DNA from: Actinomycetes bacterium
Lineage (GTDB): Bacteria > Actinomycetota > Thermoleophilia > Solirubrobacterales > Solirubrobacteraceae
DNA: 38,002 nucleotides
Reading direction: 5' to 3'
Assembly: GCA_021846845.1 (NCBI GenBank)
Contig: JAJZWB010000018.1
Location: forward strand, 1-38,002
The notes below the pieces were generated by a model. It was not told where the DNA came from. It was given only the letters and a program-made list of their open reading frames with translations, and did not search any database. The translations under genes and the position numbers were made by a program. Positions 29,343 to 32,534 of this stretch are shown here, one piece after another. Within the stretch, counting starts at the first letter, position 1. The number at the start of each line of letters is the position of its first letter.

Positions 29343-31136
29343 GTGGCCCTGCTGCTCCTCTTCGCGCTGATCGCCGGCGCCGGCACCGCGATCACCCCGT
29401 GCGTCCTGCCGGTCGTCCCAGCCCTGCTGTCAGCCAGCGCGGCGGGTGGGCGGCGCCGGCCGATCGGGATCGTGCTGGGCCTGGCCGTCACGTTCACGAT
29501 CGCGATCGTCGCGCTCGCCCAGCTGGTCCGGGGGGTCGGCCTGGCGGCCGGAGCTGCGCGAACGACCGCGATCGTGGTGCTGATCGCATTCGGAGCCCTG
29601 CTGCTGATGCCCGCGCTGGCCGAGCGCCTCCAGGCCCCGCTGTCGCGCCTCGCCCGCTTCGGACCGCGCACGCGTGGCACCGGCTTCTGGTCCGGGGCGT
29701 GCGTGGGGGGCGCGCTCGGCTTCGTCTGCGCCCCCTGCGCCGGACCGATCCTCGCGGCGGTCACCTCGGTGAGCGCGTCGACCGGGGCCAACGCCCGCGT
29801 GGTCGCCGTGGCGCTCGCGTACGCAGCCGGGCTCAGCGCGGTGATGCTGCTCTACGGCCTCGGCGGCCGCGCGGTGCTCGGCGCGATCCGCCGGCGGGCC
29901 CGGGGGCACGCGGTGGAACGATCGCTCGGAGCCGTCCTGCTCGTGACGGGCATCGTGATGGCGGCCAACCTCGACGTCCGCTTCGAGGAGGCGCTCGCGC
30001 GCGACACAAGCCTGCCGGCCTTCCTGGTCGACCCGACGCGCGCGCTCGAGGCATCACGCGCCGTCCAGAGCCGCCTCGCGTCGCTGCGGCCGCCATCGCG
30101 CTTCGCGGCGCGCCAGGCGATCGACGCCTCCGCGACCCCCGTGGCGGCTCACGCCGGTGTGGCGATCCCGGGCGTGCGCACGCCGCCGCTGCCGAGCCTC
30201 GGGCCCGCGCCGTCGTTCACCGACACCCAGCGCTGGTTCAACACGCCCGGCGGCCGGCCGCTGACGCTCGCCGGGCTGCGCGGCCACGTGGTGCTGGTCG
30301 ACTTCTGGACCTACACGTGCATCAACTGCATCCGGACGCTCCCGTTCCTCAAGGGGCTCTGGGCCACCTACCACCGGTACGGGCTGGAGATCGTGGGGGT
30401 CGAGACGCCGGAGTTCACGTTCGAGCAGGATGCGGCCAACGTGCGGCAGGCGATCGCGTCCGACGGGCTGCGATACCCGGTCGTCCAGGACAACCGGTAC
30501 GGCACCTGGAACGCCTACCAGAACCAGTACTGGCCGGCCGAGTACCTGATCGACGCGCACGGGCAGGTGCGTCATGTTCAGTTCGGGGAGGGCGGCTACC
30601 GCCAGGACGAGGCGGCCGTCCGCGAGCTGCTCTACGAGGCGGGTGCGCGCAGCCTGCCGCCGCCGATGACCGTTCATGAGACGCTGCCGTCCGCGGGGCT
30701 GAGGACACCGGAGACCTACCTCAACCCGCAGCGAGCTGCCGGCGAGATGCTGGCCGCGCCGCTGACCGTCGGCGCGCACCGCTACGCCGGGGTGCGCTCG
30801 CCGGTCCTGAACGAGTTCGGCCTGCGCGGCTACTGGAGGGTGAGCTCGCAGGCGGTCACGTCGCTGGCGGCGGGCGACACGATCACCGGCCGCTTCGACG
30901 CCCGCGACGTCTACCTGGTCATGACCTCGGCCGGGGACCGACCGCGGCGGGTCGCGGTGCTGCTCGACGGGCGTCCGATCCCGGCCGCCGACGCGGGCGC
31001 CGACGTGAGCGGAGGTCAGGTGACCGTCGTGGGCCAGCGCCTCTACGCGCTCGTGTCGCTGCCGGCCGACGAACGGCGGACCGTGACGCTGGAGGTGCCT
31101 CCCGGGGTCAGCGCATACGACTTCACGTTCGGCTGA
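29343..31136 (+). CDS. dipZ: DipZ-type membrane thiol protein (CcdA + thioredoxin + C-terminal domain)
   Basis: This 597-residue protein carries reducing power across the membrane to an extracytoplasmic thioredoxin domain. The CcdA/DsbD part (1-210, about six helices) has Cys20 in TPCVLP and Cys129/Cys132 in CAPCAGP. The thioredoxin domain (about 285-430) has the CxxC motif Cys326-Cys329 in WTYTCINCIRTLPFL. A C-terminal beta-rich domain (about 450-597, ending VSAYDFTFG) completes the layout known from M. tuberculosis DipZ. The first two CcdA cysteines sit unusually close to the N terminus, so the start is probably right; it is GTG 29343. No -10 box is clear. Partners, such as exported cytochromes or lipoproteins, are not shown by the context. 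Confidence 0.9.
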   Translation: MALLLLFALIAGAGTAITPCVLPVVPALLSASAAGGRRRPIGIVLGLAVTFTIAIVALAQLVRGVGLAAGAARTTAIVVLIAFGALLLMPALAERLQAPLSRLARFGPRTRGTGFWSGACVGGALGFVCAPCAGPILAAVTSVSASTGANARVVAVALAYAAGLSAVMLLYGLGGRAVLGAIRRRARGHAVERSLGAVLLVTGIVMAANLDVRFEEALARDTSLPAFLVDPTRALEASRAVQSRLASLRPPSRFAARQAIDASATPVAAHAGVAIPGVRTPPLPSLGPAPSFTDTQRWFNTPGGRPLTLAGLRGHVVLVDFWTYTCINCIRTLPFLKGLWATYHRYGLEIVGVETPEFTFEQDAANVRQAIASDGLRYPVVQDNRYGTWNAYQNQYWPAEYLIDAHGQVRHVQFGEGGYRQDEAAVRELLYEAGARSLPPPMTVHETLPSAGLRTPETYLNPQRAAGEMLAAPLTVGAHRYAGVRSPVLNEFGLRGYWRVSSQAVTSLAAGDTITGRFDARDVYLVMTSAGDRPRRVAVLLDGRPIPAADAGADVSGGQVTVVGQRLYALVSLPADERRTVTLEVPPGVSAYDFTFG

Positions 31137-31177: not shown

Positions 31178-31741
31178 ATGGAGGGCTCGACCGAGGTCCG
31201 CAGCTGGCTCCGCTGCTATCGCTGCTGGTCTCAGAACCTGGAGGTCCAGGTCCACTACGAGGGAATCCATCGGATCGACCCTGAGACGGGGGAGCGCGGC
31301 GAGGTCGTTGACGAGATGCAGGAGGCCGTCGTCCAGTGTCTGGAGTGCATGCACGACCAGCCCCACCTGGGCTTCCACAACGGGCGCGTCGAGCCTGTCG
31401 AGGATCGCTGGGAGCGAATGATCGCCGGCACACCATGGGTCGCCTCGTGCACCGTCACCGTCGACGCCGACGACGTCGAGACGTGCTCGGGCCCGGAGGC
31501 CGGGGATGCGCTGTCGTACGCCGCCTTCGGCGACCACGGCACGCGGGAGTTCTTCACCCACGTGCGCTTCCACAAGCATGAGGAGGAGCGGATCGTGGTT
31601 CACCTGCTCGTGGAGCTGTACTCGCGCTCCGCGGAGGAGGCGACCGAGGTGCTTGAGCAGGCTGCGCGCGGCCAGCTGGCGATCACCTCGCTGGCCGAGG
31701 AGTCGCGTCCGCCCGCGTCGACGGGAGACGCGCGGCACTGA
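31178..31741 (+). CDS. Zinc-ribbon hypothetical protein
   Basis: A 187-residue cytoplasmic protein with two CxxC knuckles, Cys13/Cys16 (LRCYRCWS) and Cys53/Cys56 (VQCLECMH), about 40 residues apart, likely a structural zinc site. The rest is acidic with several His residues (HVRFHKHEEERIVVH, about 127-141). I recognise no known family. The promoter is leaderless with a dyad over the -10 box. The gene overlaps the convergent membrane protease-like gene tail to tail by 59 bases (31683-31741), so their transcripts are antisense at the ends. Confidence 0.72.
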   Translation: MEGSTEVRSWLRCYRCWSQNLEVQVHYEGIHRIDPETGERGEVVDEMQEAVVQCLECMHDQPHLGFHNGRVEPVEDRWERMIAGTPWVASCTVTVDADDVETCSGPEAGDALSYAAFGDHGTREFFTHVRFHKHEEERIVVHLLVELYSRSAEEATEVLEQAARGQLAITSLAEESRPPASTGDARH

Positions 31742-32534
31742 TCTCGGTCCGGGCGTGTCTCCGGACGCGCCACTGCCACGCCTCGCCTGCGATCAGCGCC
31801 ACCGCCACGGGCACCGTCGCCGGCAGCTCCGAGATGAAGAAGAACAGCAGGTCGAACAGGGCCGCGAGGATCAGCGTCAGCAGGGCCATCGGCGCCTGGC
31901 GGCGACCCTCACGGGCCAGCACGGCCCCCAGCAGCCCGGCCACGAACAGGTCTCCGTAGCCGAGCGAGACGGTTCCGAACAGGACGCTCTGCAGCTGTGG
32001 CAGGCCGCTGCCCGGCAGCGGAGCCGCCGTCACAAGCGTGTTGTTGGGCGCCTGCAGCAGGTCGGAGGCGACCAGCCAGACGTCGGCCACCGACATCGCG
32101 ACGAGTCCGAGCTTCAGCCATCGCGGCGGAGTCACGGCCGCCAGGAGCACCCCGAGCGTGACGCAGCTGAGAGCCGACAGCAGGGCCGCCGCCAACTCGC
32201 CCCACAGCGTCGCCCGCGACGCCCACGCAAGCACGAACAGCCCCGCCGCTATCGGCGCCGCCCAACGGCGAGCGCCGCGGGCGGACCATCCCAGCGCCGC
32301 CGCGGCGAGGATCGGCACCGCGATCAGCGCCAGCCACGTGATCCCCGTGGCCGTCGCGGACGCGTAGCGGATCATGTAGATCACGCCGACGATCGAGGCG
32401 ATCGGGATCACCGCCCAGGCCGGGTGGGAGAAGCGGCGGATCCATCCCACCTCAGGCGGGCGCCGAGGCGCGAGCACGACGCCGGCCTGCAGCGCGAGCA
32501 CCGCGACGTCCGATGGGATGAACGCCAGCGCCAT
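31683..32534 (-). CDS. Nine-helix membrane protein with presenilin/SPP-like GxGD motifs
   Basis: A 283-residue very hydrophobic protein. I count nine likely helices (roughly 8-23, 39-56, 66-82, 91-107, 111-134, 140-158, 184-205, 216-234, 237-251). Asp151 lies in helix 6 (SVADVWLVASDLL). Helix 7 carries GYGD (192-195) in LGYGDLFVAGLLGAVLA. Helix 9 has a Pro-rich motif, ELPATVPVAVAL (236-247). Presenilin and signal-peptide-peptidase proteases have nine helices with YD in helix 6, GxGD in helix 7 and PAL in helix 9, so the layout matches. The helix-6 Tyr is absent and PAL is PAT, so the assignment is a hypothesis. An unrelated integral membrane protein is possible. TAGCCT lies eight bases before the ATG. 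The 3' end overlaps the zinc-ribbon gene. Confidence 0.75.
   Translation of the reverse strand: MALAFIPSDVAVLALQAGVVLAPRRPPEVGWIRRFSHPAWAVIPIASIVGVIYMIRYASATATGITWLALIAVPILAAAALGWSARGARRWAAPIAAGLFVLAWASRATLWGELAAALLSALSCVTLGVLLAAVTPPRWLKLGLVAMSVADVWLVASDLLQAPNNTLVTAAPLPGSGLPQLQSVLFGTVSLGYGDLFVAGLLGAVLAREGRRQAPMALLTLILAALFDLLFFFISELPATVPVAVALIAGEAWQWRVRRHARTEISAARLPSTRADATPRPAR

Follow-up and report, generated by a model that had tools for sequence, protein, structure and literature searches.

Do bacteria possess a counterpart of presenilin and signal peptide peptidase (SPP)? Presenilin is familiar from Alzheimer's disease and SPP from the clearance of signal peptides, and presenilin-type enzymes have been described in eukaryotes and archaea. 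The question is raised by one gene in a 38,002-nucleotide stretch of DNA (the window, meaning the whole stretch) from an Actinomycetes bacterium of the family Solirubrobacteraceae (contig JAJZWB010000018.1, positions 1 to 38,002). An earlier note, made without database searches, had read its product as a candidate presenilin/SPP-like GxGD intramembrane protease. The predicted structure indicates that the gene product is very likely a bacterial intramembrane aspartyl protease of presenilin/SPP fold, its catalysis being predicted. It also likely belongs to an undescribed family of di-aspartyl proteases found across Thermoleophilia, characterised by the motifs [AVIL]D, G[YFW]GD and PATVP and predicted to be the bacterial counterpart of SPP. 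The gene and its parts are as follows, with transmembrane helices abbreviated as TM.

31683..32534, minus strand: predicted nine-TM GxGD di-aspartyl intramembrane protease, 283 aa (open reading frame, homologues, AlphaFold2 model, PDB fold matches)
32082..32084, minus strand: codon of Asp151 in TM6, the first proposed catalytic Asp (position computed from the start of the reading frame; helix 137-156)
31980..32000, minus strand: PQLQSVL, residues 179-185, a P-x-LQ motif before the predicted beta-hairpin that precedes GYGD (conservation; strands in both models)
31950..31961, minus strand: GYGD, residues 192-195, at the start of TM7, with Asp195 as the second proposed catalytic Asp
31809..31823, minus strand: PATVP, residues 238-242, a PAL-like motif at the start of TM9

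The frame runs from an ATG at 32534 to a TGA stop at 31683 (283 codons), and the coordinates and residue numbers first given for it proved exact. Homologues with 24-64% identity were found in 78 of 299 sampled Thermoleophilia genomes, mostly Solirubrobacterales, and leave no doubt that this is a real coding gene.

Predicted fold and motif positions

An AlphaFold2 model built with 49 homologues reached a predicted local distance difference test score (pLDDT) of 92.9 and a predicted template modelling score of 0.89. It contains nine long helices and two short ones, in agreement with the roughly nine helices anticipated in the earlier note, and the three motifs lie where that note had placed them. 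Asp151 falls within helix 6, GYGD opens helix 7 (193-209), and PATVP caps TM9 where helix 9 (240-269) begins. PATVP is nearly invariant in the family and occupies the place equivalent to the PAL motif, with Thr where PAL has Leu. The interval between TM6 and TM7 holds a short helix resembling TM6a (161-169), followed by a beta-hairpin (183-186/189-192). In substrate-bound gamma-secretase, TM6a and the strand that pairs with the substrate are found at the corresponding place between TM6 and TM7.

Fold comparisons pointed to the same group of enzymes. In a Foldseek search of the PDB, ranks 1-9 were SPPL2a and PSEN1 chains, all with probability 1.00. VIA-align gave Z 18.5 for inhibitor-bound SPPL2a (rmsd, root-mean-square deviation, 3.4 over 234 residues), Z 17.6 for PSEN1 over 255 residues and Z 12.4 for the archaeal presenilin homologue PSH. 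Every row above Z 9 was a presenilin-fold enzyme, while the next, unrelated chain scored 4.6. A second model, of a relative only 31% identical that carries GWLD in place of GYGD, showed the same elements (pLDDT 91.1, top Z 17.2), with PSEN1 slightly ahead and the first chain from outside the A22 proteases at Z 4.9. Among viral models, the best match was a megavirus signal peptide peptidase. The structural similarity to presenilin, SPPL2a and PSH that had been put forward as a check is thus far above that to all other chains, and it is this wide separation from unrelated helical proteins that makes the match persuasive. In the predicted models of these two remote family members, the fold is the nine-TM presenilin fold, with Z of 17-18.5 and the next unrelated chain below 5.

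Conservation and spread of the family

Conservation was counted over 129 distinct aligned homologues. Asp151, Pro179, Asp195 and Gly203 are each present in 129/129, and the two aspartates, whose conservation the earlier note had singled out for checking, are the only invariant charged columns. Thr240 is found in 128/129, the remaining row being gapped, so that it is kept wherever a residue aligns. These positions together indicate that the motifs are not there by chance. The surrounding residues are also strongly retained: Pro238 and Pro242 (127/129 each), Leu181 and Gln182 (126/129 each), Ala239 and Gly192 (125/129 each) and Gly194 (119/129). Most members carry the GxGD motif in the form G-[YFW]-G-D.

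Some members depart from this form. A GWLD subclade (L034, L036, L037, L039, L040 and L042) retains both aspartates, and its predicted fold is unchanged. PibD, an archaeal A24 protease whose motif was redefined as GxHyD, is active with a hydrophobic residue before the Asp (PMC4343526), suggesting that loss of the second Gly need not mean loss of activity. Three further members, L041, L043 and L044, are divergent and have Asp for the first Gly of GxGD (DYPD, DYGD), and their active sites are possibly altered; L041 is a paralogue within a genome of the window's own genus. Apparent long fusions in L092 and L113 were rejected: rather than fused domains, they seem to be open frames antisense to a neighbouring gene.

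A genome-wide scan with the alignment returned 84 relatives, nearly all from Solirubrobacterales or other Thermoleophilia; the same scan with the single protein as query returned none. Cultured Conexibacter strains carry the family, and in the tree Conexibacter DBS9H8 and S30A1 stand at zero distance from members of the window's own genus. Across 396 genomes of the wider phylum, only chance matches to other membrane proteins were found outside the class; the three weak ones were set aside because the proteins read as an ABC permease, a transporter of EamA-like type and a short protein resembling a DUF. A few relatives bear unexpected labels. L124 comes from a contig with the label Chlamydiae, yet groups within the Solirubrobacterales rows and has their gene neighbourhood, and L136 and L140, which carry the label Bifidobacterium breve, fall among rows from Thermoleophilia. 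Tree position, and for L124 also gene content, suggests that these labels are errors of metagenome-assembled genomes, and all three are probably mislabelled or contaminated bins.

Relation to known proteases and alternative explanations

Several results weigh against reading the gene as a presenilin-type protease. None of the A22 Pfam models (PF01080, PF04258, PF06550) matched any of 49 family members, and the Foldseek E-values were modest, at 1.7e-3 or weaker. An hhalign comparison with the PSH/Natrinema pair was not significant, although with a PSH profile only two sequences deep it was a weak test. Among 66 mapped loci, no constant genomic partner pointed to a substrate. Finally, the Tyr of the YD motif, already reported missing from helix 6, is replaced by Ala here, and in the 129 homologues residue 150 is Ala, Val, Ile, Leu, Gly, Ser, Thr or Cys and never Tyr, indicating that its absence is a family trait.

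Other searches were equally silent. With phmmer and hmmsearch, and with either the single protein or family profiles, Pfam, NCBIfam, PHROGs and PDB sequences yielded nothing usable; a match to NCBIfam septation protein A (E 0.038) fell far under the cut-off and was rejected. No match was obtained by hhalign against a PSEN1 fragment, and viral contigs, scanned with an archaeal A22 protein as query, yielded no match. PF06550, the archaeal presenilin model, was absent from all 198 sampled Actinomycetota genomes, while the same search detected it in Haloferax and Methanosarcina controls. PF04258 had no match in 99 genomes of the class, yet no control was detected either, so this does not show absence. 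Searches of the open PMC literature found no account of a relative from Actinobacteria, and a description elsewhere is possible.

Comparison with described enzymes places the family beside them rather than among them. SPPL2a (A22B), the best structural match, shares membrane aspartates in TM6 and TM7, GxGD, a motif at the start of TM9 and, as predicted for the bacterial family, a C-terminus on the inside. The bacterial protein is only 15% identical to it, has PATVP for PAL, and lacks YD, the N-terminal PA domain and a PF04258 match. PSEN1 (A22A) has in common the nine-TM fold, GxGD and a beta-strand region before TM7, and its Asp-to-PAL spacing is 48, against 43 from Asp195 to PATVP. At 13% identity, however, the bacterial protein has no YD, no long autocleaved loop and no PF01080 match, and its predicted topology is opposite. 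PSH/MCMJR1 (PF06550) shares the fold and is likewise a standalone prokaryotic enzyme, an active presenilin-like protease in archaea (PMC2947513). Its segment MGMGDLIMPSIL resembles MGYGDLFVAGLL of the bacterial family, and the GxGD helix was the best local segment of the non-significant profile comparison. PSH differs in having YD and a GLP-type motif, and in its spacings (Asp-Asp 58 versus 44 in the bacterial protein; Asp to TM9 motif 56 versus 43).

The lack of YD, the Thr in place of the PAL Leu and the lack of any curated A22 match keep the family apart from the described A22 families. The earlier presenilin/SPP-like reading is supported for the fold and the invariant Asp pair, with function predicted, and is refined in two respects: the protein falls outside the described A22 families, and its charge pattern predicts an SPP-like rather than a presenilin-like topology. 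The protein is best regarded as sharing the fold and, by prediction, the working of an A22 enzyme, and as belonging to a new family of the same kind outside presenilin, A22B and PF06550.

The orientation of the protein in the membrane was predicted from charge. The mean balance of K+R versus D+E in 50 homologues is net positive for loops 1-2, 3-4, 5-6 and 7-8 and for the C-terminus, and neutral or negative for loops 2-3, 4-5, 6-7 and 8-9. Under the positive-inside rule, this pattern predicts an external N-terminus and TM6-TM7 loop and an internal C-terminus. Such an N-out/C-in orientation, here a charge-rule prediction, is the SPP arrangement. The topology of SPP and SPPL proteins is reversed relative to presenilins (PMC7768045).

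The same fold could also belong to a protein that no longer cuts and serves instead as a chaperone, a leak channel or a receptor for membrane helices. A shared fold does not by itself show a function, the YD motif is missing, and in a few relatives GWLD has lost the second Gly of GxGD. Pseudoenzymes, however, usually lose one catalytic residue, whereas here both aspartates persist in every homologue over a deep tree, GWLD members included, while neighbouring residues vary. With a hydrophobic residue before the Asp also having a precedent in active PibD (GxHyD; PMC4343526), a non-cutting protein is unlikely. A similarly improbable variant accepts the chemistry and reverses the topology, so that type I helices would be cut in regulated signalling as by presenilin. 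Its attraction is that PSEN1 (17.6) is tied with SPPL2a (18.5) and slightly leads for the second model; the charge pattern, however, puts the C-terminus and the odd loops inside, as in SPP, and the spacing between the two Asp is short, at 44, without a long cleavable loop.

Coincidence is harder still to credit. Membrane proteins rich in Ala and Leu yield many spurious matches, and no A22 family was matched at the sequence level, so a transporter or other helical bundle might be suspected. Yet two separately aligned models reach Z of about 17-18 to presenilin-fold chains before scores drop below 5, and the motif residues, the best conserved of the family, fall where they would be expected along the helices, which makes such a bundle very unlikely. 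Least probable of all is a divergent A24 type IV prepilin or archaellin peptidase, the usual bacterial GxGD protease. The A24 enzymes (PilD, FlaK, PibD) are likewise GxGD-type aspartyl membrane proteases with two membrane aspartates, and GxHyD variants occur in both groups, but their helix layout and substrates differ. The protein has no match to PF01478, while a separate A24 prepilin peptidase gene elsewhere in the genome passes the Pfam cut-off, and the full nine-helix layout of the protein, with its PAL-like motif, matches A22 enzymes. No A24 structure appeared among the listed fold matches, which taken alone excludes nothing.

Proposed mechanism, genomic neighbourhood and significance

As a presenilin-fold protease, the protein would use Asp151 and Asp195 (in GYGD) as a catalytic pair activating water within the membrane. 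Substrates would enter laterally, and PATVP together with the P-x-LQ/beta-hairpin segment may keep an unwound stretch of the substrate in place as an extra strand, as happens in gamma-secretase. An SPP-like topology would make type-II-oriented membrane helices the likeliest substrates, which may be small membrane proteins of type II or the signal peptides that remain after signal peptidase has cut. From this topology, we infer that spent signal peptides are the leading candidates.

The genomic neighbourhood varies between clades. In the window, the protease gene lies 3' of a PEPCK gene on the same strand, with a gap of 111 bp, and no promoter- or terminator-like site was found near it. Two other neighbours in the window are:

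31178-31741, plus strand: 187-aa Cys-rich (CxxC) conserved protein, whose gene converges on that of the protease, the two 3' ends sharing 59 bp
29343-31136, plus strand: long protein in which a CcdA/DsbD-like membrane domain is joined to a thioredoxin-like one (CINC), assigned by reading

The Cys-rich protein has no Pfam match, and its gene adjoins the protease in 21/66 mapped loci; the PEPCK and Cys-rich neighbours each recur in about 20/66, with PEPCK upstream in the window's clade. In other clades the gene stands next to unrelated genes, in one of them Nramp, MgtE-like and RmuC genes. In 13/66 loci, a homologue of the CcdA/DsbD-thioredoxin-like protein is encoded two or three genes away from the protease. 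None of the neighbours makes a credible substrate dedicated to the protease, which is compatible with a housekeeping role without proving one.

If this reading is true, a compact, single-subunit bacterial version of the enzyme, present in cultured Conexibacter, would widen the evolutionary range of its class. It would also show which motif residues are dispensable, namely the YD tyrosine and the PAL leucine, and would offer a tractable model for substrate gating. This would further raise the question of whether these soil actinobacteria clear signal peptides with an aspartyl enzyme.
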